Assembly (NCBI GenBank): GCA_025920705.1
Contig: JAPDLJ010000004.1
Location: 1-64,000, forward strand
Reading direction: 5' to 3'
Source: Candidatus Jingweiarchaeum tengchongense
GTDB lineage: Archaea; Nanobdellota; Nanobdellia; Jingweiarchaeales; Jingweiarchaeaceae
Length of the DNA stretch: 64,000 bases
A program made the position numbers and the translations under genes. This document shows, piece after piece, positions 3,156 through 47,211 of the stretch; within the stretch, counting starts at the first letter, position 1, and the number at the start of each line of letters is the position of its first letter. The notes under the pieces were generated by a model. That model had not been told where the DNA came from and did no database searches. It saw only the letters and a program-made list of their open reading frames with translations.

Positions 3156-3800
3156 ATGAAAAATGAAGAAAAAGAATCAAAGAAAGAACAAGAAATTATC
3201 AAAGAAGAGTCTATTGTAACGGTAGAAAAACCAACTGACAAAACCGAACTTAAAAAAATTGAGAAACCGATTATAAGTAGTTCAGAGGAGAAACCCATAC
3301 AACCCATAACTTCCTTTGAGTCTAAAATCATAGAATATGAAAAAGAGAAGCAACTTCCACCCATTTCTCAACCCCAAGAAAAACAAACCACAGACATCCT
3401 AACAAGTTGGCAAGCGCAGATTAAAGAATTAGCAGATCATCCATTGTCCCAGGTTAAGATAATCAACACAGAAATGTTTTATAATTTAACAGAGATTTTA
3501 AAAGATATGAACACAAAATTAAGTAAATTAGATGAGATTTTAAACATATTAAAAGAAAAACAAAAAGAAAAATATTCAATAATTGAAAAAAAAGAAAAAT
3601 TATCTAGTATTAAGGATAAAGAATTTTTAAATTTCTTTTTAGAAGGAGAAAAACATACAGCTTATGATTTGGCACAAAAATTAGGAATGAGTCGAAGTAC
3701 CATATCATTTAGATTGAATCGCTTATTTGAACAAGGTTTATTGGAAAAAGAATTAATAGGTAAGAAAATATTCTTCAAATTAAAAAAAGATGAAAAATGA
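3156..3800 (+). CDS. Coiled-coil protein with C-terminal winged helix, SdpR-like position
   Basis: I take ATG 3156 as the start (214 aa); an in-frame TTG at 3087 is possible but would place the start inside the repeat region. Residues about 1-95 are low-complexity, rich in Lys, Glu and Pro; about 110-160 form a coiled coil; about 160-214 are a winged helix with a clear recognition helix (LAQKLGMSRSTISFRLNRL) and a basic wing. Its stop overlaps the ATG of the SdpI-like gene by 4 nt, so the two are co-translated. In Bacillus, SdpR is a small ArsR-type repressor paired with SdpI; here the DNA-binding domain is attached to a long coiled-coil extension. Repressor of its own promoter is inferred from the repeats upstream. 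Confidence 0.7.
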   Translation: MKNEEKESKKEQEIIKEESIVTVEKPTDKTELKKIEKPIISSSEEKPIQPITSFESKIIEYEKEKQLPPISQPQEKQTTDILTSWQAQIKELADHPLSQVKIINTEMFYNLTEILKDMNTKLSKLDEILNILKEKQKEKYSIIEKKEKLSSIKDKEFLNFFLEGEKHTAYDLAQKLGMSRSTISFRLNRLFEQGLLEKELIGKKIFFKLKKDEK

Positions 3801-10331: not shown

Positions 10332-10340
10332 TTCTATTTT

Positions 10341-10676
10341 TTATATTACTTTTATTAAATTACAACTCGTGTCCAATTCAACAAAGTGATGCGCACTTCC
10401 ATTTCTATAAGCCTGACACTGGTTTTCCGGTAAGTCATCTATTGGTTGTCTTGGAGAATGTGCAATATCACAAACCCAATCTTCAATGTTCCAATTTGGT
10501 TCATTATCTGAAAGACATGGCCCATTCTTATATGCTTCTTCTATTGATGTGCCCACTGGTTTATTTCTACAAATTTGCATACATAATGTAATCGCTTGCT
10601 GTTTCTTGTCCTGTGACTGTTGAATACAACCAATGATAAAAACCATAAAAAATATCAAAATCAAAACTTTTTTCAT
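10341..10676 (-). CDS. Small Cys-containing lipoprotein
   Basis: 111 residues. The N-terminus is a lipoprotein signal: MKKVLILIFFMVFIIGC, with the lipidation Cys at residue 17. The mature part has six Cys and the run WVCDIAHSPRQPIDDLPENQC followed by HHFVELD. The same C-AHSPR-P-ENQC pattern is seen in uncharacterised exported archaeal proteins. It should face outward, anchored to the membrane; disulfides are likely. No function can be given. Confidence 0.75.
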   Translation of the reverse strand: MKKVLILIFFMVFIIGCIQQSQDKKQQAITLCMQICRNKPVGTSIEEAYKNGPCLSDNEPNWNIEDWVCDIAHSPRQPIDDLPENQCQAYRNGSAHHFVELDTSCNLIKVI

Positions 10677-10694
10677 ATTTCAAATCTGATTATA

Positions 10695-26170: not shown

Positions 26171-26476
26171 ATGAGTTTGAAGGCATTGAACCTAATCAAG
26201 AAATTAATCTTTGAGTCAGCGAAAGAAAATAATTTTCATTTAACTGTTGATTTTGAACGTTATTTGCTTGAATTTTTTAGAAGTAGGTTTTCACTAATTG
26301 GCTCAGTAAACTTTTGTGATGATCTGGAGAAAAAATTAAAGGAAATAAAAAAAGATCAACCTGAAATTTTGAAGAGAATGGTAAAAGAAGCAATGGAATT
26401 ATATCAAAGAAGGACACCACTTATCATAGTTAAAAAGAAAAAGAAGAGGGCGAAAGAAGCCGTAGAAATCATTTAA
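26171..26476 (+). CDS. Small basic helical protein
   Basis: 101 residues from ATG 26171 (a GTG nine bases earlier overlaps the rhomboid stop). Helical, with a strongly basic KKKKKRAK stretch near the end. Residues 25-55 contain a compact FERYLLEFFRSRFS segment. No family recognised. It follows the rhomboid gene, so it may be its partner, and its end overlaps the convergent HerA-like gene by 8 nt. Confidence 0.55.
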   Translation: MSLKALNLIKKLIFESAKENNFHLTVDFERYLLEFFRSRFSLIGSVNFCDDLEKKLKEIKKDQPEILKRMVKEAMELYQRRTPLIIVKKKKKRAKEAVEII

Positions 26477-29400
26477 TCTTTATCTTGTTTTCTATGTCTT
26501 CTAAATAATATTTTACAAGCTCAAGCATTCCATGTCTTAGTTTTTCAGCTGCAAGTTCCAAACTTATTTTCATCTCCGAAACATCTCTCCTATCTTTTAA
26601 TTCATCAATCTTTTCCTTCAGTTCTAATATTTTTTTTCTATAAATCTGAATCTCATCAATCTTTTTATTTGGAATCGAATGTGGTGAATGGAGTAAGGGT
26701 CGAAATTTTATGAAGTATGGGTTCGCATTATTATATTCTGGATTTTGTATCATACCAACCCCCGTCTTTAATTTTGGTATCATTTTAGCAAAGGCACCAC
26801 CATACTTTTCTTTTATCCTGTTTATATCCCCTTCGTAATTTGTCCTGAACTGAATTTCAGTTTCAACATTAGCTCTTATTACTGCTTTAAAATCAGTTAG
26901 AACTTGCGATGTAAGCAATAAACCGATTCCCCACTTTCTAAATTCCCTAACTGCTTTCTCGAGCATTAAGTATGCCTTTTTTCCACCATACTTTGGTAAT
27001 AAGCGATGCACTTCTTCAAGCACAATCAACAACTTTAATTTTTCACTTTCTTCTAGATCTGCTTCAAAAAATGAATTTAGAAATTTTTTTATAAATTCAT
27101 CAAAATCTTCATTATTGAGTTCATTCAAACAGAATACTGTAATCCCACCTTGCCAATATCTTTCCATCTCTATCTTTGTATCTGCGTCTATTCTTATGAT
27201 ATCTGTTGCAAAATTCATTGGTTCCTTTAAACCAAATTCTTTATAGAGTCTTAACATGCTTTGTTCATCACACTTTGAGATAAACCCAGTCCATTGTTGT
27301 GTTGGATCGAGCACGATTACAGGTATTTTTAATTTAAGTAGTTCTTCAGCAATTATCATCGCAGTTACTGACTTTCCTGAACCGGTTGAACCTGCAAGTA
27401 GCATATGTTTCATTAATTCATTTACATCGATGTATGCGTTCTCTTTTGTGTTCAAAATTTTACCTAAGTATATACCTTTTTTAGGAATTTTTGAAAAATC
27501 TACCTCAATCTTTTTTGGTTGGGCAATAAATTTTGTTTTCTCTATGAATTTTTTCTCAATTCCAAAGACGAACAATAAACTTGATAGAATTAAAATGAAT
27601 ATCACCAAAATACCAATCCACTCAAAGCTTCTCTTTAATTTTATTTCGTCAGATAGCTTATTTATGTAGTCAATTATGGCCAATATTATTTTATCCGCGG
27701 ACACATAGTCACCAAGTTCGATATACATGAGCGATTTATTTAAAAGAAATTCAATGTTTAACAAACTTGAATATAAGTTTGATTTCGGAAATAAATGAAG
27801 TTGGTCTATTTCTTCTCTTAAATTTTTTATTTTATCTTTAATTGTATCGATTCTCTCCATATAGAATGGGCTCCTCGAGTTAAATTTTAATGGTATAATA
27901 GAACCACCTTCATCATAATCAATGTACAATAGATAATCATACATTCCTTCTTCCAAGTTCAGATTCAATATTATTTCCAAATTTTTATCCAGTATTGAAA
28001 AATTTTTTGAATAATTCAGACTTTCTATTCTTACATTTAGATGATGGATTGGAAGTCCGCACACATTTTCTAATATTATCTTTATCTCATTTGATTTGTT
28101 TGAAGATATTAGGAAATTTGTCTTACTTATTTTCACACAATCTTTCTTGACAAATAAACTTGCACTTGCATTTATTTTTTGTTCATACATATAACTAGCT
28201 AATACTATAACCTCGTATACACCAGGATCAATTTGCATCGGAATTAATATTGCTCTATCTAAACTTAGAAAATCTTCCACAAATACTGTTTCATTTGTTT
28301 TCTCAAATACCTTTTCACCTTTTTTTATCTGATATTCTAAAAATACATTCGTTGCACCTTTTCCAAAATTTGTGATATTAACAATGAAATTTAGAAGACT
28401 CCCCACCCAAACAACATTATTCTTCAAATCAACAGAAATATTTAGGAAAGGTACTGCCCGATTTACAATCATTGTTGTATTTATTTTGTTACTGCTAACT
28501 GGATTGTTGGCTGAAACACCATTCGCCGTGACTGAAAAAGGATAATCTCCTATAATCGCATCTAATGGAATTACAAATCTAATTTGAAATGTTTCATTTG
28601 TATTCATTGTTATGTTTTTATAGATTGGATTTATCTGATACCATGAATTGTTTAGCCCACTTATTGATAAGTAAACATTACTTATATTACCATTATGCGC
28701 ACTTACGATTGCATTTGTATCATAGAAAGAAGCTTGCGTCAGTATTATTCTTGTTGGAAAATACAATGTCAATTGAGCTTGCGTAGGTTGGTATGGTTGT
28801 TGCGGTAAATCATTAACTACATAGATTAATGTTGGGATCTCATTCCAATGTTGCAATGAATCTTTCGCATAGTATTTCCATGCATAAACTTTTCCAATTG
28901 TCCAATTTCCAGCACCTATCTTATAGCTTACACTATATGGCTCACTTGCATCTAATGTGATTGTATAATTCGTCCAGACTCCAGAATAGTTTGAACTGAA
29001 AATTACTTCTGTTAAGTTGATTGAATCATTCCACACCACATTACAAAAAACATCTTCATTATAGTATGGATTTCTATTTGGTATTTGTGTGATATTTGAA
29101 TAAAATGGGGTATTTAAGTCTACCTTGAAATTAATTAAATTTGATGTTCCATTTAATATATCATCTTGACATATCACCCACAGTTTATACATTCCTTCTG
29201 ATAAATTCGTGATGTTTATTATTCTAAAAGAACCATTGTTGACGATCGAATCATATACAATTTCATCATTCAAACCATACCAACAACTTAAGTTTGTTTT
29301 ATAATTATCAATTGTTGTATAGTTTAGTATAACCCAATCTTTTCCGATAATCGTATTGTTCATCGGTTCTGTAATTAAAACTTCTGGATTTAAAATATCA

Positions 29401-29756
29401 ATAAGCAATTGATCACTCCAATTTGTTGAATTCCATTCATTCAATGTATTATTTACATAGACCATCGCCCTTATTTTGGTTGTTGAGTCTATTACCTTTG
29501 TTGAATTTGACCAACCTGGCGTTGTATTAAATAAAATTATACTATCATTGTAGATTGAGTTAGAATAGTTCCAAGAGACAATGAATGAACTTAGATTACA
29601 ACTTGCATTACTTTCATTCCAAAAAGCATATACTTTAACTTGATTTTCAGCTACTCTCTCAATGCTAAAGTTATACCAGTAAGGTATAGCAAAGCATGCC
29701 GATACAAATGGTAATAAAAGTACAAAGATAATCATGAACCTAAAATTTATTCTCAT
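26469..29756 (-). CDS. Membrane protein with extracellular domains and a cytosolic HerA/VirB4-type ATPase
   Basis: 1095 residues. A signal peptide (about 1-23, ending near SACFA) precedes about 690 residues of exported Ig-like/APHP-type repeats rich in N-glycosylation motifs (N-x-S/T). A single membrane helix follows at about 713-732 (WIGILVIFILILSSLLFVFG). The C-terminal 350 residues are a DUF87/HerA-type ATPase: Walker A GSTGSGKS at 789-796, Walker B LLIVLEEVH at 909-917, RxFRKWGIGLLLTSQV with a sensor. HerA-family hexamers translocate DNA, while VirB4/FtsK relatives pump DNA or proteins. A surface-to-cytoplasm architecture like this suggests DNA transfer, secretion or pilus assembly. Not shown by sequence alone. 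Confidence 0.85.
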   Translation of the reverse strand: MRINFRFMIIFVLLLPFVSACFAIPYWYNFSIERVAENQVKVYAFWNESNASCNLSSFIVSWNYSNSIYNDSIILFNTTPGWSNSTKVIDSTTKIRAMVYVNNTLNEWNSTNWSDQLLIDILNPEVLITEPMNNTIIGKDWVILNYTTIDNYKTNLSCWYGLNDEIVYDSIVNNGSFRIINITNLSEGMYKLWVICQDDILNGTSNLINFKVDLNTPFYSNITQIPNRNPYYNEDVFCNVVWNDSINLTEVIFSSNYSGVWTNYTITLDASEPYSVSYKIGAGNWTIGKVYAWKYYAKDSLQHWNEIPTLIYVVNDLPQQPYQPTQAQLTLYFPTRIILTQASFYDTNAIVSAHNGNISNVYLSISGLNNSWYQINPIYKNITMNTNETFQIRFVIPLDAIIGDYPFSVTANGVSANNPVSSNKINTTMIVNRAVPFLNISVDLKNNVVWVGSLLNFIVNITNFGKGATNVFLEYQIKKGEKVFEKTNETVFVEDFLSLDRAILIPMQIDPGVYEVIVLASYMYEQKINASASLFVKKDCVKISKTNFLISSNKSNEIKIILENVCGLPIHHLNVRIESLNYSKNFSILDKNLEIILNLNLEEGMYDYLLYIDYDEGGSIIPLKFNSRSPFYMERIDTIKDKIKNLREEIDQLHLFPKSNLYSSLLNIEFLLNKSLMYIELGDYVSADKIILAIIDYINKLSDEIKLKRSFEWIGILVIFILILSSLLFVFGIEKKFIEKTKFIAQPKKIEVDFSKIPKKGIYLGKILNTKENAYIDVNELMKHMLLAGSTGSGKSVTAMIIAEELLKLKIPVIVLDPTQQWTGFISKCDEQSMLRLYKEFGLKEPMNFATDIIRIDADTKIEMERYWQGGITVFCLNELNNEDFDEFIKKFLNSFFEADLEESEKLKLLIVLEEVHRLLPKYGGKKAYLMLEKAVREFRKWGIGLLLTSQVLTDFKAVIRANVETEIQFRTNYEGDINRIKEKYGGAFAKMIPKLKTGVGMIQNPEYNNANPYFIKFRPLLHSPHSIPNKKIDEIQIYRKKILELKEKIDELKDRRDVSEMKISLELAAEKLRHGMLELVKYYLEDIENKIKIK

Positions 29757-31307: not shown

Positions 31308-31721
31308 TTAAAATTTGAAATTAAATTTTTCTCTTGCAACATTCTCTAGTTTTATTATCTCACTTTTTTTAAAACCGATATAAACACCATTTTCTTTTCC
31401 ACCGACCCAAGTTCTTGTTTTTTCGTTTTCTCCCAAGATCAAATTTAAAAATTTATGGAGAACAACAATACTTTCATCATTCAATTTAATTTTTAATCCA
31501 TTTTTTATCCCATGTATACTTAAAAATTTTCCGTTATTCACAATGTGATTCAATGATTCATGCTCTATATCCAAATGTGTCACTCTCGCTAATGAAAAGC
31601 CCTTGACATGAATGTAAACAGAAGCCCCATCCAAGCTTACTTTTTTGTTTTCCTTCTCTATGTAAACTTTAGCTTTTTTTAAACTCAACTTACCAATACC
31701 AGGACCAGTCATTTTCTCCAC
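31308..31721 (-). CDS. Uncharacterised protein at the end of the Ku-ligase operon
   Basis: 137 residues, beta-rich and soluble, with no recognised domain. It begins near GPGIGKLSLKKAKVYI and ends in a basic tail. It overlaps the preceding HhH-glycosylase-like gene by 13 nt, so it belongs to the operon that begins with Ku. A role in the same repair process is inferred from position only. Confidence 0.55.
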   Translation of the reverse strand: MEKMTGPGIGKLSLKKAKVYIEKENKKVSLDGASVYIHVKGFSLARVTHLDIEHESLNHIVNNGKFLSIHGIKNGLKIKLNDESIVVLHKFLNLILGENEKTRTWVGGKENGVYIGFKKSEIIKLENVAREKFNFKF

Positions 31722-32398
31722 CTGCAGAAGTCAATCACTTTACATAAATTACATTTTCCCTTTCTACATAAATCCTTACCAATTTTCAATAAAGAAGTTT
31801 CAAGATCAATTGCATCATACCCAGGTAACCGATTTTTCTTCCATACTTCCTCAATTTCATCAAAACTACCTTCTTTGATAATCCCAAGATTTTTACCACT
31901 GATAATTGTAAACTTGCTTAACTCTAAATCTCTTATTTTCCAGACATATCTAAGTTCCCTTAGGAATATATTTATTGTAATATCACCTATCCCCTTCCCA
32001 AGCGCCTTTATTTTATTTTTCAAATCTTCTGTGTTTGATGCGCTTTCACGTATTTTGTTTATATCACTATCATAATTTTTAACCAAATTTTTCATTACTT
32101 CAAGTAATTTATCCGCTGTTTTGAAATCATATCTTGTGTAACTTCCTTCATCAAGGATTTTCACTAACCCATTCCAGCCCGTTTCTATGATCTTTTCTGG
32201 ACTTAATACTTTATATTTCTTAAAGCAGAAATAGGTCTTGATTGCAGATTTCTCGTTAATTGGTGCACCAAACAAAATACTTGCAAGAAACCACTTAAAA
32301 ATTTCATTCTTTTTTTCTAATTCTATACCTAATCTCTTTGAGTAACATGGGCCATACCAAGTTACAACTGATTGAATCAATTTCTTTATTTTTATCAT
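31709..32398 (-). CDS. HhH-GPD-like protein with a C-terminal Cys cluster
   Basis: 229 residues. A helix-hairpin-helix region sits at about 130-150 (KALGKGIGDITINIFLREL), and the end has CRKGKCNLCKVIDFC, four Cys spaced like the 4Fe-4S loop of endonuclease III (the first gap is shorter). The standard catalytic Lys/Asp positions are not certain. It overlaps its upstream neighbour by 4 nt and its downstream one by 13 nt. A DNA glycosylase or a DNA-binding partner for end repair are both possible. Confidence 0.6.
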   Translation of the reverse strand: MIKIKKLIQSVVTWYGPCYSKRLGIELEKKNEIFKWFLASILFGAPINEKSAIKTYFCFKKYKVLSPEKIIETGWNGLVKILDEGSYTRYDFKTADKLLEVMKNLVKNYDSDINKIRESASNTEDLKNKIKALGKGIGDITINIFLRELRYVWKIRDLELSKFTIISGKNLGIIKEGSFDEIEEVWKKNRLPGYDAIDLETSLLKIGKDLCRKGKCNLCKVIDFCRWRK

Positions 32399-33066
32399 TT
32401 GTTTCCCTTATCAGATTCTTTAATCCATATTGCCCAGCACAACTCTATCTGTGAGATTCCAATCTTATTTGCAATCACTTCTATTTTTTTTATTAGATCA
32501 ATTTCATTATCCGATTTTATCTTGAATAATCTCTCAATCGAACGTTTGATTATTTTATCTGGCATTGAAGTATCAACACCAACTTGCATTCTCAAATATT
32601 GAAATGTAATCAAACCCACACCTTTGATCTTTCCAATTTCATCTTCTTCCCAATTCTCATAATTTGCTTTTTTAGCCCAGTATTTTAATGCACCAAAATC
32701 GCTCAAATTTTGTTCTTTTTTTATCCTTAATATTCTCTTACATATTTCAAGGCAAGCATTCCAGACCCTTTCATTTTTGATTAATTTTCTTAGTCTTTCA
32801 TCTTTGGCATTTAATTTGACAAAATCTTCAAGTGTCGAGATTTTTCTTGTTCTAACATAATCCTCATAAAATTTCTCAACTCTAGGAACGACAATTTTAA
32901 AATAATTTAAACCAATACTGTCTAAGCAGGCATCAATTATAATTAAAAGTGCGTTTCCATACCACCTTTTTCCAGAAAAACATAAGTTAGCATAGTACTT
33001 CGCTTCTTCTATTACATCAGAAAAATAGCTTTCATAGATTTTCTTCCAGTACACACTCTTTGGCAT
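32395..33066 (-). CDS. HhH-GPD superfamily protein without iron-sulfur loop
   Basis: 223 residues, helical. At about 140-185 it has EIGKIKGVGLITFQYLRMQVGVDTSMPDKIIKRSIERLF, close to the HhH followed by the Asp and Arg helix of endonuclease III/AlkA-type enzymes (G-V-G, then a D-x-x-x-P-D and R). No Cys cluster. It overlaps the ligase stop by 35 nt, so all these genes are translated together. A base-excision role beside end joining is inferred. Confidence 0.6.
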   Translation of the reverse strand: MPKSVYWKKIYESYFSDVIEEAKYYANLCFSGKRWYGNALLIIIDACLDSIGLNYFKIVVPRVEKFYEDYVRTRKISTLEDFVKLNAKDERLRKLIKNERVWNACLEICKRILRIKKEQNLSDFGALKYWAKKANYENWEEDEIGKIKGVGLITFQYLRMQVGVDTSMPDKIIKRSIERLFKIKSDNEIDLIKKIEVIANKIGISQIELCWAIWIKESDKGNK

Positions 33067-34024
33067 CTTTATCCTCTCTTAGTCTGATAAAGCTTGGTGC
33101 TCTGAGCATAAGATCTTTCGTTATTTCCATGAATTTAACCTCACAAACAATTCTTGGTTGCACCCATTTAACAACGTATTTTTTTTCATAGTCTTGCCAA
33201 TTCTTTAATGTGTCCTTCACCGGACATTCAGCAGCAATTTCGTCAAGTTTATTTTTAATTTCTCTTAACTTTTCATCATCCCAACCAGTTCCGACTCGTC
33301 CAATATGAAACAATTTTCCTTTATGATAACAACCGAGTACAAGCGCACCAAAATATCCTTCCCTTTTTCCTTTACCTTCAGTATAACCAATTATTACTGC
33401 ATCAATTGTTTTTAGATTCTTTATCTTTAGCCAAAATTTTGATCTTTTTCCAATCAAATATGGTGAATCTTTCTTCTTCATCATAAGCCCTTCAAACCCG
33501 ATTTTCTTTATCTCTTCAAATAATTTCTTACAATTTATTCCATTAAATTCTTCAGATATTCTTATGAAAGGATTATCTTTCAAGACATTTCTTAAAATCT
33601 TTTTTCTTTCAATTAAAGGCTTATCAATTAATTCTTCACCATTTAAATAAAGGATATCGAAAACAACAAATGTGGCTGGTATTGTTTTTGAAAGTACATC
33701 AATCTTAATTTTGTCGTCTACATGTTCCCTCATTTGTAATGAATAAAAGTCTGGTTTACCTTCTTTGTTGTAAGTTACAATCTCACCATCCAATATCACT
33801 TGCCTTGCATTTATTGCATTTGGGAGTGCACTATATATTTCAGGATATTTATGTGTAAAATCAATCATTCTACGATTTAAAAATCTTATATGATTTCTAT
33901 CAGCATCAAAATAACATATCGTCCTAGTTCCATCCAATTTTATTTCACAAATCCAATCTTCATCATCAAATGCGCTTGAGGAATAAGCGAGCATTGGTTT
34001 TATGTCTTTTTCCATTAGATCCAT
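33032..34024 (-). CDS. LigD-type ATP-dependent DNA ligase
   Basis: 330 residues, the size of the ligase domain of bacterial LigD. Motif I is EIKLDGTR (nucleophile Lys near residue 28-30); motif III is DGEIVTY, motif IV is FEGLMMKKKDSPY, motif V WLKIKN. The OB part ends with KWVQPRIVCEVKFMEITKD and LRAPSFIRLREDK. No polymerase or phosphoesterase domain is attached, unlike the full LigD. It follows the Ku gene by 32 nt. Its role is to seal ends held by Ku. Confidence 0.93.
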   Translation of the reverse strand: MDLMEKDIKPMLAYSSSAFDDEDWICEIKLDGTRTICYFDADRNHIRFLNRRMIDFTHKYPEIYSALPNAINARQVILDGEIVTYNKEGKPDFYSLQMREHVDDKIKIDVLSKTIPATFVVFDILYLNGEELIDKPLIERKKILRNVLKDNPFIRISEEFNGINCKKLFEEIKKIGFEGLMMKKKDSPYLIGKRSKFWLKIKNLKTIDAVIIGYTEGKGKREGYFGALVLGCYHKGKLFHIGRVGTGWDDEKLREIKNKLDEIAAECPVKDTLKNWQDYEKKYVVKWVQPRIVCEVKFMEITKDLMLRAPSFIRLREDKDAKECVLEENL

Positions 34025-34056
34025 AGTCTAAATTTAAAATTTAAAGAATTAATTTT

Positions 34057-34842
34057 TTACTTTTCTTCTTCACCTTCTTTCTCAATGCTTTCTTTTAGTG
34101 CTGAAATAAGTTCCTCAGCTTTTTCAACTCTTTCTTCTGCACTCACTTTGAACTCCTTACCTTCACTCTTTGCTTTTATTAATTCCTTCAACGCTTCGGT
34201 GTATTGGTCTTTAAATTTTGCTGGATTGAATTCTTGTTGTGTGAGCTTGTTAATCAACATCTTAGCAAGTTCTAGTTCTTCCTTACTTACAATAACAAGA
34301 TTTTCGAGTTCCTTCAATTTTTTTATGTCCTTAATTTCAGATAAGAAGAAGAGGATATGCATTATTAAACCATTTTGGAATGGTCTTAAACAAACAAGAT
34401 ATTCCTTATCTCTCATTACCACTTTTCCCACGGCTGCCTTATTTGTAATTCGAAGTGCTTCCACTAGTAATGAATAAGATTTTACTCCACCCTCGTCAGG
34501 TACAACATAATAACTTTTCTCAAAGAATATCGGATCTATTTGTGAAATATCAACAAATTGTTTTATATCGATTGTCTTTGTGCTTGGTAGTTTTATTTTG
34601 TTTAAATCTTCCTTTTCAATAACAATCCACTTATCTTTAGAAATCTTAAATCCCTTTTTTACATCCCGCCATGCAATTTCTTTTTCACACTTTGGGCACC
34701 AACGTTTGTATTCTAATGGCGTGTTACATTCACTACACAAATTATTAAATTCTATTTCCTTTGGCTTAGTTGCCACATAAATTTTTATTGGAATGTTGAC
34801 AAGCCCAAATGAAATCGATCCTTTCCAAATTGCGTGCACCAT
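34057..34842 (-). CDS. ku: Ku protein
   Basis: 261 residues, bacterial/archaeal Ku length. It begins HAIWKGSISFGLVNIPIKIYVATKP, has a zinc-ribbon pair of Cys (CSEC and CPKC at about 37-54), the VPDEGGVKSYSLLVEALR segment, and KVVMRDKEYLVCLRPFQNGL. The C-terminal tail is basic and acidic mixed (KAKSEGKEFKVSAEERVEKAEEL). Ku forms a dimeric ring that threads onto double-strand ends and recruits LigD-type ligase. The next gene is such a ligase, giving a two-component end-joining system. Uncommon among archaea. Confidence 0.95.
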   Translation of the reverse strand: MVHAIWKGSISFGLVNIPIKIYVATKPKEIEFNNLCSECNTPLEYKRWCPKCEKEIAWRDVKKGFKISKDKWIVIEKEDLNKIKLPSTKTIDIKQFVDISQIDPIFFEKSYYVVPDEGGVKSYSLLVEALRITNKAAVGKVVMRDKEYLVCLRPFQNGLIMHILFFLSEIKDIKKLKELENLVIVSKEELELAKMLINKLTQQEFNPAKFKDQYTEALKELIKAKSEGKEFKVSAEERVEKAEELISALKESIEKEGEEEK

Positions 34843-34948: not shown

Positions 34949-35725
34949 ATGATCAAAAAAATGACCTACTTCTTTATGTTTTTGTTAATATTAATTAGCT
35001 TTGGTTGCGTCAAACAAGAGGAAGCTAATATCAATAAAACAACTCAAAATCAGACAATTCCACAAATCACAAATGAAACAAATTTAACTCTTCCACCGGT
35101 AAATTCAACGGAAATAGGAATAAATGAGACAAAAAAATTGTGTAGTGGTAAGGTGGATGTAATTTCATCTTTTTATACAGGTGAAGCATTAACAGGTGAA
35201 ATAACAATAGCATTATTGTTGAATCTTGAGTTTAAGTCTTATAACTTTGGTTATTACAATTGTAGTATTAACAATATTTTAAAGAACGATACCTATGAGT
35301 TTTTTACTGTAAGCTCCTTTGAGGAAAAATGTTCATATAATACAATTGTGAACAAGAGAACAGGCGATGTGTGTATTGTATTCAGTGATAAAACATATGG
35401 GGAAGAATTTTTGATACTTGAAAATAAAATAATTCCAAAGATTGAAATTGTGAATTTGACATGCGATGCGTCGACTGATAAGATCAAATTTTCGCTTAAA
35501 AGAAATACAATCACAAAGGAATTGCGCAGCCCAATTGAATTAAGATACTACAATGAGATAGAAGCAATTGTTTATTCAAAGAAAATAGATTTTGTTAATT
35601 TTTCATTGCCCATTGAAGTAAAAACACCGATTACATATAGAAGAAATTATACAATTGGAATAATTTATTATTATAAAGATAACTTGGAAAAGGGATTTAT
35701 TACGATAAAAAATTGTAGCACCTGA
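34949..35725 (+). CDS. Predicted lipoprotein
   Basis: 258 residues. The N-terminus is a lipoprotein signal with LISFGC (lipidation Cys near residue 20), followed by a Thr/Asn/Pro-rich linker. The rest is beta-rich with seven Cys in all, probably disulfide-bonded, and several N-glycosylation motifs. Not recognised. Two small genes follow (7 and 1 nt gaps), which may form an operon. Confidence 0.65.
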   Translation: MIKKMTYFFMFLLILISFGCVKQEEANINKTTQNQTIPQITNETNLTLPPVNSTEIGINETKKLCSGKVDVISSFYTGEALTGEITIALLLNLEFKSYNFGYYNCSINNILKNDTYEFFTVSSFEEKCSYNTIVNKRTGDVCIVFSDKTYGEEFLILENKIIPKIEIVNLTCDASTDKIKFSLKRNTITKELRSPIELRYYNEIEAIVYSKKIDFVNFSLPIEVKTPITYRRNYTIGIIYYYKDNLEKGFITIKNCST

Positions 35726-40339: not shown

Positions 40340-40855
40340 TCAAGAATAGATCAAATTAAAGAGTTGTTCTTGTTCAACTTCGATTGTCTTTAAAAAATTT
40401 TCAGTTTTTTTGATGTATTCACCAAGATCTTTTAAATTTCCTCTATTATAATTTGTTAAAATATAATTTACCATATTATTTGCCCCATCTATCCTCAATT
40501 TAAGCGAGTTTATTCTTGCTATTGAGACTCGATCTTGTCTTTCATTGATCTTACTTTCCAACATATTCAAACTATATCTAATCTTTTGAAATCTCTGTGA
40601 TATTTCTCTGACTTTCTCATCAATTCCAACACTGACCACTTCACCAGTTGTATATACATGATATGCTAAGAACAGATTTAAGGCAAGTCCCAAAATCAAT
40701 ACAAATGGAAAAATATATGCAATTTGAATCAGGAAGAAACAAATCAAAATATAAGAAAATAAGATGATGATACCTAGTTGTAAGTTACCAAGGTAGATAT
40801 AACCAATTCCCGGCCAAATGAAATTTGTTATACTTGCAATTATCTTTTTTTCCAT
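40340..40855 (-). CDS. TM2-like membrane protein with a coiled coil
   Basis: 171 residues from ATG 40855, which shares a base with the stop of the long upstream gene (TAATG). Hydrophobic helices at about 7-25 and 30-60 include FIWPGIGYIYLGNLQLGIIILFSY, close to the TM2 domain. Residues 75-165 form a helical, coiled-coil tail in the cytosol. Position suggests translation together with the split protease. Role unknown. Confidence 0.6.
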   Translation of the reverse strand: MEKKIIASITNFIWPGIGYIYLGNLQLGIIILFSYILICFFLIQIAYIFPFVLILGLALNLFLAYHVYTTGEVVSVGIDEKVREISQRFQKIRYSLNMLESKINERQDRVSIARINSLKLRIDGANNMVNYILTNYNRGNLKDLGEYIKKTENFLKTIEVEQEQLFNLIYS

Positions 40856-43800
40856 TATCCTATCCACCCCAACATTTTTATTATTAATGTTAATATGAAG
40901 CCTGGAAGTCCAAGCGCCAACAGAGAAAACATTTCTATTGTCCTCAAGTTTTTATCTTCTTTGGTTAAACTGATTATCGTACCATTACTTGCATCGATGA
41001 TTGCTTTCGTGTTAATCCGTGCTTCGAATAATAATAAAACTTTCTTTTTTGACACCCCGCTTATTTCATAATATGGATTCATATTTTCCTCAGAAACTTT
41101 TACTTCATTAATTTCACTCATTTCACCTGAAATTGATGAAATTGCACCACGTAGATCTACATTCATTTTACTTGCTGCAATATCACTAATTGGTTTGTAT
41201 TCTACTGACACATTCTTAATTTCTCCAGCGATTTCAATCGTGATCGTTGTGTTTCCTGGCGCATATACTCTCTGCGTTTGATTTTGTTGAGGTCCAGCTT
41301 CGCTAACCTTAATTACAGTTAGACTTTTACTCATTGTTTTCTCAGTCGAAACATTATTAACGAGGTACCTAACTCTCGCTGTAATTGTATAAATACCACT
41401 TGTGTTCAGATTTCTTATTATGAAATCCGTAGTTGAACTTGAATTCCTAGATATGGTGATTGATCTAGCAGGATCGGTTTGTAGCGGGAACGGAGCTAGA
41501 ATATCGACCGTAACCGTTTTGTCTGTTGTTCCATTATTTCTTATCACGACTGATGCCCTTATTTCCTCTGAAACATTTGCGCTTGCTGGAACATCAAAAT
41601 TAACGATTGATATTGTGTCTGTTTCAGGTGTAGTTATTAACTTTACGATAACTAGTAAAGATGCAATATTTGATTCAACTGTAGTCACATTGCTTTTGCC
41701 AGCTGCGCCATAAAGTAATGTTAAATTTTTGTTTTCATGACCTGGAGGCACATTGACAGTAACTGTGAATGCAGATTGTGCCCCAGGATCTAAACTCATT
41801 GCACTTGGTGATGAACTTATCCAAGAGCAATTCGTAAAACTTACACAGACAAAACTGATGTTTTCCACTTTTCTTGTATAGATATTTTTAATATTTACTA
41901 TGAAATTAAATTGTCCACTGTTGTTTACGGTGACCTGTATTGTTCCACTACTCACATTTAATCCAACAATGGAACTTGGTGGAGTCCATACACATTGTGT
42001 TGATGATTCACACCCATTACTCCAACTTCCATCACAATTATAGTATCCACTGTTACAATAGCAAACACCACCACTACAATATGCATTTGATCCACAATTC
42101 ACACCAGCACATGGATTACAAGGCGTACTACTACAAATACCATTACAACAATATTTTCCTTGACATTCAGAAGCAGATGAACAACTTACACCATCACACT
42201 TTCCACAATCCTGCGGACAATTTGAACAACTTTCACCCAAATCACCCCTACACACACCATCACCACAGTAACCACCATAACGCATTGCTACAGAAATTCT
42301 CTTACTTATGTTCGTTCTTTCTATCGCTAAATTAGTATAATCAAAGCTGCCCAGTAAGAAATAATTACCAACTTCTGAAAATGTATGAGTATAACCTAAG
42401 TTTTTAGTCTCGCTCGTTGATATATTTAATGGTGTCGAATTGATTAGATAATAAGAATTATTTTTTATATAGAAGAATAGAAATGTACCTTCTATCGACT
42501 CATTTATTAAGTTAGTTAATGTAAAGTTTACCAGGTATGTTGAATTTGTTACAAATATATTCGAGGCAGAGACAGAAATGCTTAATGGTGGATTTATTTC
42601 TATTTTATCTTCACCAATTATTGAATTTGAATCTGGGGATGCGAAATCAAATTTGTAAATCAATTTATATTTCCCAGGGTTATAAAATAGACTTAATAGT
42701 GTGGAGTTGGATATAGCCTGATTATCTTCCAATTCTATACTTTCATTAAATAAGTTCTGTATTACAGTACCATTTTCAAAACATAAATTCAATGTGTAAT
42801 TGCCACTCACATTTAATCCACCAGTATTGTTAACGATGCCAGTTAAGTTCACTACATCACCGTAAATCAATTCTGATTTATTTATTATATTTAAGATGTG
42901 TAGACCCACATATTGTAAAGAAGGTGTTATTGATACATTTGTCTCATTTTCGGATGTCGTTTTTAATTTTAATACCACATCATATGTTTTATTTGGAATA
43001 AGATCAATATAAAGTGGAGAATTTAGATCTCTCAGAATTATTTTTTTCAAATTACCCATATCTACAACACTATTGAACAAATAATTTTGGATGACACCAT
43101 TTAAACTAGATGATTCAGTTTGATAATCAAGTAAAGTGTCATTATTCGCATCAAAAACAAGTTTATCATTAGACCCATAGACAGCCTCCTTACCATCAAT
43201 TTTTCCATAATACAAATAAGAAGAGTAACCACAAAGCGGACTTGAAAGACTTACATAAGCGTGAGTAGAGTAAACAGATATTTGATAAGCAGTAAAATTT
43301 AAACCATGGATTGTGATGTTTGAATTCTGAGAGATCTGTGTCTCATCGCTGAAATCATCATCTGAATCACTATCAAAATAGAGATAACCCTTATCACTTA
43401 CTAACATGTTTGGTGTATAAGTGGTTGTACTTACAGACAGGGTATAATTTCCTACACCACTCCAAAGATCAACCATTATGTAATAAGTGCCAGCAGTCAA
43501 TATTGAGCTACAACTCTCTGTTGCTGATCCGCCAGTATATGGTCTACAACTCCAGTGACTTGAATCAGGGCAATTACCGTACCACTCTGTGTATAAGTCG
43601 TAATCTACGCCAGAATCCATACTTAGTGTAACAGTAATTAGTTTACTTTCATTTATTGTAAACTTATAATATTTGTATGTTTGTGTCGAATCAATGACAT
43701 ATTCATTCAATGAAATTGAACATGCATTACTGCATGAATTACCACAATTTTGTGGCGCATATACAGTTGAATAATTAGGCGGTGTGTGTTGAAGCATAAA

Positions 43801-46281
43801 TGATCCCAGATAAAACTTGTGATTTGTTGTTGGTATATTTCCAACATAATAACCAGTAGCATCCAAAAATCCATCTGACATGTTTGCTCCAGTAGAATTT
43901 TTCAAATCATAGTCTATCGTCACAAAAGTTTGATAGCAAGATGATTTACTCAGATTCCCACTAATTTCATTTTGTTTCACAAAGAACGAATCCACATCAA
44001 CTTTTACAGCCATCATCGGTATTACTGTTCTATTTGAACTAATGTTAAATAAGATTCTATAAGTTCCATTTTCTGGAGATGAAATCATTCCCCACAATTC
44101 ATCATCTTTTATCGTCAAATTCAGCTGTTGTGTAAAATTAAGATAGCTAGCGATTGTAATTGGTGTTATTATCGTAAGGTTTGGATCATACCCTTTTATG
44201 TATCCTTTAATTACTTTCCCTGTGTTGTTGGTTACATCAATATAAATACTCAAATTTTTGTTTGCATTACTTTCTAAAGAATTAAATGAATTGTTAATGT
44301 TTATACCACTACAATTTGAGGCTTCGTAGAATGTGTATAAAATGTTTACTGTATGATTATAACCATACTTACTAAAAACAATCCTCCAATTTCCAGGTAC
44401 TATATCATATGTTTGAAATGTTGTGCTAGAATAATACCACCCACCCAGATAAGTTACATTGTTAGGATTATAAATTGTTATTACTACCCCTTCAGAGAAA
44501 TCATCAGGGACGATATTTATACTCATCTTCACAATTCCGCTTGGAACATTTAAGTTATATGTATAAGTATTATATGGCCAGTCAGAATAACTTCTAGAGG
44601 TAAGCTGAATAGTGCCACTTCCTGTTGATTTTACTCTTTCACCACAGTAGATAAACCAACTAACATTTGTTAGTGGAACGCCAAAATTATAATAAGTCAA
44701 ATTCAATGTTTTATTTGTTTCATTTATATCAAATAACACATAAACATCAGTTGGTTCTGATTTTATTGCATAAAGCGTTGAATTTAGTTCATATGTTGGA
44801 CTTGTATTCGCAATTATCAAAATTTTACTCAAATAAATTACTTTATTTGTAAAATCTGTTGAGAGGCTTAAATTATTATAACCAAATATAATGTTGCTAG
44901 TGATATCAATACTATAATTTTGATCTGTTGTATTTGCAGTGATATTTATTAACTCGTTTCCATTCAGCAATACTGATATATCACTTTCACTGTCATTTAT
45001 GTGTAATGTTAGATTCACAATAACTTTGTTCAATTTAAAAGGGCGAGTAGGGGAGAAGTAGAACAGATATGTTTTATTTGTTGAATTTATTACATCATAA
45101 GAAAGGTTTGTATAATTTAGTAATGTTTGAATTGTTGGATCCATTCGATATGTTCTTAAGACGATTGTATAATTTCCAGTAGTTGGATTACCAAGTGAAG
45201 TACTTGATGATAAATCAACTATTTCCTTTGAAGGTGAGACAACGTAGAATCTATCATTAGTGCTTAAGTTTGAAGTAAAGTATAACTTTGTTTGAGTTGC
45301 CGGAGGTACCTCAATGAAGTAATAAGTAGTGTTTGTAACATTTATTGTCCCATTTAAACTAGCAGTACCATTTGTTAATGAAATTTTTTGCGCTATTTTT
45401 ACGTCACAAGGCACTAACATGCTTCCATTGTTCCATGAGAAATTTATGAAACCAGTGTATATGCCACCAGGTATATTGGTTGGTACATCCACATTTACAT
45501 CTATTACTTGATGTGATTCGCTCCTATTTCCAAGTTCTATGTAACTTATATTTTGTGGTCTGAATGTAATCCAACCTGCTATTTCACCACCAGTCCTTAC
45601 CGTGAGATTTTGTAATTGTTTTCCAATTATGATTGTAAATCTTCCGCTTGTACTTGAACCAGGAATAAGTCCATATAAAAGCATTGGTTCACTCAAACTT
45701 GTTTCTCTCTCAGGACTTTCAGTATATGTTGAAATATTCCATAAATTCGGTATGACAGCAATTGTAACATTATTATTCATAAGAAGCCAATATGAATTGT
45801 TGATATCAATTCTACCAGTTCCTTGATGGAAAGCATCATATTCAATTCCATAACTATCTTTTAATTTATCAGCTCCAAGCATTAATGCTGCTTTTATTAA
45901 TTCTGGCCTTGGTCTTTGTCCACCATGTGTGCTTTTGTAAGCTTGGATTAATAGAGCAGCAGCTCCAGCAACTTGTGGTGTTGCCATTGATGTTCCACTT
46001 GCCATTGTATAGTAACTATCAATTACTGTTCCCATACTTGTTCCACTAGCTCTTGCAGCAATGATATTAACGCCAGGAGCGACAACTTCTGGTTTAATAT
46101 TGCCTTCCATTGTTGGTCCACTACTACTAAAACTCGCCATCCTATCTACTTGATCAGAAGCGCCAACAGTCATTGCTTTTAGTGCTTCACCAGGAGATTC
46201 AATTTGAATATATTCACCTATACATCCTGCTATTAAAATTATTCCAATCAAAATCAAAACTAAAAATATTTTTTTATCCAT
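40855..46281 (-). CDS. Split subtilase C-terminal half: lipoprotein with the catalytic Ser, PPC and Cys-rich domains
   Basis: I start at ATG 46281 (1808 aa); upstream in-frame codons lie inside the first half-gene. Residues 1-20 are a perfect lipoprotein signal, with LIAGC and the lipidation Cys at 20. Residues 23-130 continue the S8 protease fold: YIQIESPGEALKAMTVGAS, FSSSGP and the catalytic Ser 98 in GTSMATPQVAGAAALL. Asp, His and the oxyanion Asn are in the other half (46274-47149). A long Asn/Thr-rich exported region follows, with a PPC-like domain at about 840-960, a Cys-rich EGF-like section at about 1330-1430, CARDB-like repeats, and a membrane helix near the C-terminus (LLALGLPGFILTLIIKML). 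Confidence 0.88.
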   Translation of the reverse strand: MDKKIFLVLILIGIILIAGCIGEYIQIESPGEALKAMTVGASDQVDRMASFSSSGPTMEGNIKPEVVAPGVNIIAARASGTSMGTVIDSYYTMASGTSMATPQVAGAAALLIQAYKSTHGGQRPRPELIKAALMLGADKLKDSYGIEYDAFHQGTGRIDINNSYWLLMNNNVTIAVIPNLWNISTYTESPERETSLSEPMLLYGLIPGSSTSGRFTIIIGKQLQNLTVRTGGEIAGWITFRPQNISYIELGNRSESHQVIDVNVDVPTNIPGGIYTGFINFSWNNGSMLVPCDVKIAQKISLTNGTASLNGTINVTNTTYYFIEVPPATQTKLYFTSNLSTNDRFYVVSPSKEIVDLSSSTSLGNPTTGNYTIVLRTYRMDPTIQTLLNYTNLSYDVINSTNKTYLFYFSPTRPFKLNKVIVNLTLHINDSESDISVLLNGNELINITANTTDQNYSIDITSNIIFGYNNLSLSTDFTNKVIYLSKILIIANTSPTYELNSTLYAIKSEPTDVYVLFDINETNKTLNLTYYNFGVPLTNVSWFIYCGERVKSTGSGTIQLTSRSYSDWPYNTYTYNLNVPSGIVKMSINIVPDDFSEGVVITIYNPNNVTYLGGWYYSSTTFQTYDIVPGNWRIVFSKYGYNHTVNILYTFYEASNCSGININNSFNSLESNANKNLSIYIDVTNNTGKVIKGYIKGYDPNLTIITPITIASYLNFTQQLNLTIKDDELWGMISSPENGTYRILFNISSNRTVIPMMAVKVDVDSFFVKQNEISGNLSKSSCYQTFVTIDYDLKNSTGANMSDGFLDATGYYVGNIPTTNHKFYLGSFMLQHTPPNYSTVYAPQNCGNSCSNACSISLNEYVIDSTQTYKYYKFTINESKLITVTLSMDSGVDYDLYTEWYGNCPDSSHWSCRPYTGGSATESCSSILTAGTYYIMVDLWSGVGNYTLSVSTTTYTPNMLVSDKGYLYFDSDSDDDFSDETQISQNSNITIHGLNFTAYQISVYSTHAYVSLSSPLCGYSSYLYYGKIDGKEAVYGSNDKLVFDANNDTLLDYQTESSSLNGVIQNYLFNSVVDMGNLKKIILRDLNSPLYIDLIPNKTYDVVLKLKTTSENETNVSITPSLQYVGLHILNIINKSELIYGDVVNLTGIVNNTGGLNVSGNYTLNLCFENGTVIQNLFNESIELEDNQAISNSTLLSLFYNPGKYKLIYKFDFASPDSNSIIGEDKIEINPPLSISVSASNIFVTNSTYLVNFTLTNLINESIEGTFLFFYIKNNSYYLINSTPLNISTSETKNLGYTHTFSEVGNYFLLGSFDYTNLAIERTNISKRISVAMRYGGYCGDGVCRGDLGESCSNCPQDCGKCDGVSCSSASECQGKYCCNGICSSTPCNPCAGVNCGSNAYCSGGVCYCNSGYYNCDGSWSNGCESSTQCVWTPPSSIVGLNVSSGTIQVTVNNSGQFNFIVNIKNIYTRKVENISFVCVSFTNCSWISSSPSAMSLDPGAQSAFTVTVNVPPGHENKNLTLLYGAAGKSNVTTVESNIASLLVIVKLITTPETDTISIVNFDVPASANVSEEIRASVVIRNNGTTDKTVTVDILAPFPLQTDPARSITISRNSSSTTDFIIRNLNTSGIYTITARVRYLVNNVSTEKTMSKSLTVIKVSEAGPQQNQTQRVYAPGNTTITIEIAGEIKNVSVEYKPISDIAASKMNVDLRGAISSISGEMSEINEVKVSEENMNPYYEISGVSKKKVLLLFEARINTKAIIDASNGTIISLTKEDKNLRTIEMFSLLALGLPGFILTLIIKMLGWIG

Positions 46282-47149
46282 TATTACCAGCCGCAACAGC
46301 AACAAAAATACCTTGGTCAACTGCATTATTTACTGCTTCAGTTAATGGTGACATTGGACCACTGTAACTACCCCCGAGACTTAGACTAATTACATCAGCA
46401 CCATTTTGAATCGCCCAATCAATTCCAGCAATTATATCAGAACTATATCCACTACCTTCAGCATCAAGCACTTTTGCAATCAAAAGGAATGCATCAGGTG
46501 CAACACCTTTAAATTTTCCATTAGATTGTGTACCTGTTCCAGCTGCTAGGCTTGCGCAGTGTGTACCATGACCATGATCATCGTAAGGGTCTGGTCTACC
46601 ATTTATGAAGTCTTTCCATCCTCTTATTTTTCCTACAGGAAAAAGAAAATCAGGATGAGTTGGATCAATTCCAGTATCAATAATTGCAATTGTCACATTG
46701 AAACCAGTAATTTTCTGATCCCAGACTGGTTGCACATTGATATAATTACTCCTATTGTCAACATAAGAAGAGTATTCACTTTGCATTACTTTTATTGGTT
46801 TCGGTAAAGAAACTTTTTCATCGGAATATATCTTCTCAATTTCTTTACTCCATACCAAGTCTTTCAATACTTCTTTATTTGCTTTTATTGCAATCCCTTT
46901 AAAAAATTTGTATTCATAAATTATATTTGCACTACTTTTTATTTTAGATTCCAAAGATAAAGATGGTTTTTGTGAAAATTTTATTATAACCCTTATTTCC
47001 TCTTTGGATTCATTTGAAATTTTCTCCAATAACTTTTCATCAAATTTGGAATTTATTATTTCATTCTTTCTTTCTTCGATAGAAAATGTTACCGAGATAC
47101 AAATAAGTAAGAAAATTATAGACATGATAAAAACCAACTTTTTCTTCAC
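46274..47149 (-). CDS. Split subtilase N-terminal half
   Basis: I choose the GTG at 47149 (291 aa) since a TATA-like CTTAAAAAT is about 25 nt upstream and a signal peptide (KKKLVFIMSIIFLLICISVTFS) begins there. Residues about 25-115 are an inhibitor/I9-like prodomain, then the S8 domain starts with catalytic Asp 158 (IAIIDTGID), His 194 (HGHGTHCAS) and the oxyanion Asn 289 in AAGNNG, where it stops with TAA at 46274. The sequence that should follow (ending in the catalytic Ser) is in the overlapping next gene. The stop overlaps that gene's start by 8 nt (ATGGATAA). Confidence 0.88.
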   Translation of the reverse strand: MKKKLVFIMSIIFLLICISVTFSIEERKNEIINSKFDEKLLEKISNESKEEIRVIIKFSQKPSLSLESKIKSSANIIYEYKFFKGIAIKANKEVLKDLVWSKEIEKIYSDEKVSLPKPIKVMQSEYSSYVDNRSNYINVQPVWDQKITGFNVTIAIIDTGIDPTHPDFLFPVGKIRGWKDFINGRPDPYDDHGHGTHCASLAAGTGTQSNGKFKGVAPDAFLLIAKVLDAEGSGYSSDIIAGIDWAIQNGADVISLSLGGSYSGPMSPLTEAVNNAVDQGIFVAVAAGNNG

Positions 47150-47211
47150 AATTATAACTTTAAAATTCACATTTTTAAGTTTTTGTTGTACTCAAGAGTA
47201 AAAGCAATAGA

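Follow-up and report, generated by a model that had tools for sequence, protein, structure and literature searches.

The occurrence of a secreted protease whose catalytic domain is divided between two reading frames raises the question of whether the division represents an assembly error, a gene that has recently been broken, or an enzyme that is now made and exported as two chains. This question is posed by the single S8 subtilase gene of the uncultured archaeon Candidatus Jingweiarchaeum tengchongense, which consists of two overlapping ORFs (referred to here as the N-half and the C-half) on the minus strand of the window, the 64,000-nucleotide stretch of contig JAPDLJ010000004.1 that was analysed. 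The source genome is a 1.12-Mb metagenome-assembled genome (40 contigs, 92.5% complete, 0.5% contaminated) with a GC content of 32% and genes of archaeal type (viz. B-family DNA polymerase, ATP-dependent ligases, and the HMG-CoA pathway).

Several other genes of the window are of interest in their own right. A Ku gene (PF02735, E=2.6e-48) and an adjacent gene for a LigD-type ATP-dependent ligase (33032-34842, minus strand) make up a pair of archaeal end-joining genes in an archaeon with a small genome; neither a polymerase nor a phosphoesterase gene was noted alongside this pair, which is adjoined by two adjacent overlapping genes without a Pfam match (31709-33066, minus strand). The region 26469-29756 (minus strand) encodes a 1095-aa protein in which an N-terminal signal and a long stretch of extracellular type are followed by a HerA/DUF87-type ATPase domain at the C-terminus; this combination of a surface region and an ATPase domain is unusual.

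An earlier note on this DNA had described two ORFs with an 8-nt overlap (ATGGATAA), the first holding a signal peptide, prodomain, and catalytic Asp, His and Asn and stopping after AAGNNG, and the second opening with a lipobox signal and continuing the S8 fold with the catalytic Ser and about 1,700 further residues. The overlap and the lipobox signal are present in the sequence, and the described contents of both halves are supported by the sequence together with Pfam (Table 1). The Peptidase_S8 profile (PF00082; curated cut-off 21.8 bits) is matched at positions 3-154 of 288 by the N-half (113.5 bits), which also has an Inhibitor_I9 match, and at positions 163-277 by the C-half (80 bits), and the two halves jointly represent nearly the whole profile. 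The full Asp/His/Ser triad and the oxyanion Asn are thus present but spread over both ORFs, and the catalytic domain is not contained in one chain, the frame being broken after the C-terminal sequence VAVAAGNNG of the N-half. Relative to subtilisin BPN', the last residue of the N-half corresponds to position 157, two positions beyond the oxyanion Asn, which is Asn155 in BPN' numbering. In the C-half the S8 domain resumes at ESPGEALKAMTVGAS and runs through GTSMATP, and the roughly 1,700 residues past the catalytic Ser include a PPC domain (aa 869-938), a Cys-rich motif, and a C-terminal hydrophobic (membrane) helix from about aa 1785. The same I9-S8 layout and catalytic motifs are found in S8 subtilases of the class (e.g. 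L191, L188, and L033) and in the subtilisin-like serine protease of PDB entry 3afg (phmmer, E=4e-47). The S8 parts are about 46-53% identical to those of the best class relatives, which often have long C-terminal regions like that of the split gene but are unbroken at the split point. In the assembly, the split is genuine.

Table 1. Features of the split subtilase gene and their positions in the window.
Feature	Position	Strand	Remarks
N-half, S8 subtilase	46274..47170	-	298 aa; GTG start, alternative ATG at 47125; stop TAA
N-half contents			Signal peptide, I9 prodomain aa 68-122, Asp165, His201, oxyanion Asn296
Catalytic Asp165 codon (IIDTGID)	46676..46678	-	N-half
Catalytic His201 codon (HGTH)	46568..46570	-	N-half
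Oxyanion Asn296 codon (AAGNNG)	46283..46285	-	N-half; stop codon two residues further on
8-nt overlap ATGGATAA	46274..46281	-	C-half start codon (ATG) overlaps N-half stop codon
61-bp insertion	46217..46277	-	Codes C-half residues 2-21 (DKKIFLVLILIGIILIAGCI); shifts frame; position ambiguous by 2-nt GG repeat
Type-II (lipobox) signal peptide, MDKKIFLVLILIGIILIAG followed by C	46222..46281	-	C-half N-terminus
C-half	40855..46281	-	1808 aa; lipoprotein-type signal, remaining S8 domain with Ser98, long surface region
Catalytic Ser98 codon (GTSMATP)	45988..45990	-	C-half

Comparisons with the nearest relatives (76 genomes, all from the same class and all from other orders) indicate how the two frames arose. 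The earlier note had envisaged that an intact version of the gene might exist in relatives, and in class relatives the gene is indeed intact and the segment at the break absent; the same split was not seen in these class relatives from other orders. The relative G017 is continuous at the break point (AAGNSGPGEQTIGSPGTARKAITVGAS), and in L191 (AAGNDGEYGSNTIGSPG) and G059 (GGNLGEYGFFSTGNP) the residues GEY follow straight after GNxG. As these relatives are unbroken, and some carry GEY directly after GNxG, a clean insertion of 61 bp is the best reading of the locus; its best placement replaces the 58-base segment proposed earlier. The simplest reading is that an ancestral sequence AAGNNGEYIQIESPGEA received 61 bp between AATAATGG and TGAATATATT, which, 61 being 1 modulo 3, shifted the frame. 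The split is therefore the derived state, and the insert both stops the N-half and supplies the C-half with an export signal of its own. The break lies just past the oxyanion Asn, in an S8 loop of variable length; among relatives this loop is mostly 9-11 residues long, with extremes of 2 and more than 20, some of which are due to a permissive search pattern that matched other parts of the sequence.

The clean character of the insertion also bears on the explanation that the split is an assembly error or a variant from a minority strain within the metagenome bin, for which the 40-contig, incompletely recovered assembly gives some reason. However, the flanks of the insert are exactly continuous, which is untypical of a chimeric join, the insert occurs only once in the assembly, which leaves no duplicate to provoke a mis-join, and the adjoining genes of the window look intact; we consider this explanation improbable.

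The split gene is also distinctive among the S8 genes surveyed. A phylum-level S8 profile search covered 371 genomes, of which 265 had a match, and among the approximately 150 best matches listed only the split gene has an internal stop; as weaker matches lie outside the listed best, a few of which are partial, the survey is not a full census. An overlapping set, the matches listed from 19 genomes of one S8-rich family, likewise contained no internal stop. Scans of genome contigs and viral contigs recovered no near relative and distant S8 proteins only, the second genome scan returning mostly Streptomyces. The assembly holds no other PF00082 gene, and a search there for an intact paralogue able to substitute for the split gene found none.

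The N-terminus of the C-half has every part of the lipoprotein pattern: an n-region with K/R, a hydrophobic core, and a lipobox with its Cys. The suggestion that a random indel would be unlikely to create such a signal is upheld by simulation (0 of 120,000 random inserts): with the flanks fixed, none of 60,000 inserts of 59 nt with the first-order Markov (dinucleotide) composition of the insert, and none of 60,000 with that of the window, gave a lipobox signal. Of 127,882 real 59-mers from the window, seven did so, three of them at this site and four at a lipoprotein gene at about 10,680 (minus strand). The signal is far beyond what chance gives in AT-rich DNA. By a strict rule, three lipoprotein signals, that of the C-half included, occur in 384 kb of the genome; the other two begin with CIQ and CIG after cleavage, and the C-half likewise with CIG. 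Lipoprotein-like genes are present in the window at about 10340-10681 (minus strand; MKKVLILIFFMVFIIGCIQQ...) and at 34949-35725 (plus strand; MIKKMTYFFMFLLILISFGCVKQEE...), which indicates that this genome has signals of this kind. Elsewhere, the intact S8 subtilases L194, L195, L201, and L211 start with lipobox signals, followed in some by a Cys-rich CGDGxC motif, and lipid-anchored subtilases thus seem, from their sequences, to be established in the class. In these four proteins the signal occupies the natural N-terminus ahead of the S8 domain, whereas the signal of the C-half sits midway through the catalytic domain.

The origin of the insert was sought within the genome. Searches by DNA and by protein found no second copy in the 92.5%-complete assembly (only short AT-rich words), so the insert was not newly copied from any assembled gene of its own genome. 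Two candidate sources were rejected, viz. a recent copy of the 5' end of one of the archaeon's own lipoprotein genes, which has no match in the assembled genome, and a tandem duplication of the flanks, for which alignment scores fell within those of shuffled sequences. With no second copy and no flank repeat, the donor would be unassembled, foreign or diverged, or else selection formed the signal at this site.

These observations bear directly on the main rival, a recent disruption, according to which the gene was broken by a small piece of DNA, possibly taken up during end-joining repair of a double-strand break, leaving a dead protease whose C-half may still be displayed as a surface protein or may decay, the signal being due to luck or to the origin of the fragment. 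The GG repeat of 2 nt that bounds the insert is what microhomology joining would give, the Ku and LigD-type ligase genes lie on this contig at a distance of 12 kb, and a role in promoting microhomology joining has been proposed for archaeal NHEJ enzymes (PMC4797286). These features make end-joining capture a plausible origin of the insert under either account. A disruption is further favoured by the occurrence of the split in a single genome, by the position of the break at the active site, by the lack of a Shine-Dalgarno site for the C-half, and by the retained motifs, which suit a young event. It is opposed by the finding that an in-frame lipobox signal arises in fewer than 1 in 10,000 fillers, whether random or taken from the window, by the absence of a donor in the assembled genome, and by the lack of internal stops in the listed S8 matches of the class, which implies that broken S8 genes are rare. 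Residue conservation was assessed at columns with a conservation of 85% or more among 57 relatives: all 27 such columns of the N-half are retained, as are 18 of the 19 in the C-half, the one change being His to Gln in GTSMATPQ. The terminal branch of the split gene ranks 50 of 58 in both halves, neither of which is in excess. The conserved residues and the branch fit a recent split and continued function equally. Taking this evidence together, we regard a recent disruption as a serious possibility, to which we assign somewhat less than an even chance.

The start codon of the C-half has no Shine-Dalgarno site, and no convincing promoter was found for it, the best TATA-like word scoring like coding background. 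Few starts here have a Shine-Dalgarno site (5 of 35), and there is none at the overlapping downstream genes at 3797, 19321, and 31709 either, which makes a coupled restart at the C-half possible. A different route to a product is that the insert is skipped, either by translational bypassing from GGA to a downstream glycine codon or by removal of a bulge-helix-bulge intron, yielding one continuous protease. A GGA take-off codon directly precedes the UAA stop, an arrangement like that of gene 60 of phage T4, and landing on a glycine codon of the C-half frame close to the end of the insert (GGA or GGT) would restore a near-ancestral sequence. However, no stable RNA structure is present at the gap (z = 0.34-0.35), in-frame bulge-helix-bulge candidates are no commoner than in shuffled sequences, and skipping would leave the lipobox signal unexplained, and we hold this route to be very improbable.

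The leading account, which in our judgement is about evenly poised between being right and wrong, is that a clean insertion of 61 bp carrying a full lipoprotein-type signal would have made a single-copy surface subtilase into an overlapping two-cistron unit, both products of which are exported and may pair. A ribosome would end the N-half at TAA and could restart at the overlapping ATG; the N-half would leave the cell by its ordinary signal peptide, and the C-half by the new lipobox signal, to be anchored by lipid and by the C-terminal helix. Judging from their signals, both chains are probably exportable, and that both are in fact made and exported we consider a roughly even matter. Archaeal lipoprotein lipidation by AliA/AliB has been described in Haloferax (PMC12186497). 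Outside the cell the chains could conceivably pair to form a single active site, the Ser half remaining tethered while the prodomain of the N-half guides folding, as a break in a loop that tolerates changes in length could allow two chains to come together. This account is favoured by the non-random and, in this genome, rare type of signal, the lack of a donor copy, the lack of a backup S8 gene, the 1,808 codons over which the C-half frame stays open, the core residues kept in both halves, the other overlapping genes that lack a Shine-Dalgarno site, and the precedents of lipobox-bearing intact subtilases in the class and of split proteins in the Nanoarchaeota. Against it are the restriction of the case to one assembly, the lack of a Shine-Dalgarno site or good promoter for the C-half, its selection from a large scan, in which a rare coincidence is possible, and the lipid-bearing Cys beside the break near the oxyanion Asn. 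After Cys20 the mature C-half has almost no linker ahead of the S8 core; with this residue located within a few residues of the core and beside the Asn of the oxyanion hole, the geometry of which follows from the established S8 structure, the active site would face the membrane. That the halves form an active protease is a tentative proposal that we think rather unlikely to hold; equally doubtful is its specific form, a trans-assembled subtilase with a free Asp/His/Asn half and a lipid-anchored Ser half that would be active only where the chains meet at the membrane.

Split proteins that are joined after translation have been documented in the Nanoarchaeota, including 10 in N. equitans (PMC3655853). 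The split genes of Nanoarchaeum equitans and Nst1 resemble the present case in that two ORFs of a small-genome archaeon correspond to a single gene elsewhere, but the listed pairs mostly have non-adjacent gene numbers and encode informational enzymes, whereas the two ORFs described here are adjacent and overlapping (PMC3655853). Unlike those splits, the second half has here gained an export signal. Engineered split proteases and protein fragment complementation likewise rebuild an enzyme from two chains, but by design, and the literature searched, which covered few subscription journals, yielded no natural split subtilase.

Subtilisin folding is well studied, and the assembly of the two fragments is for this reason directly testable. 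If the halves are inactive, the locus would be a snapshot of a short insert providing a start codon and an export signal while breaking a gene. If both halves work, it would represent a natural two-chain subtilisin, a secreted enzyme split through the gain of a second export signal, and would show how gene fission can solve the need of the second half to leave the cell.
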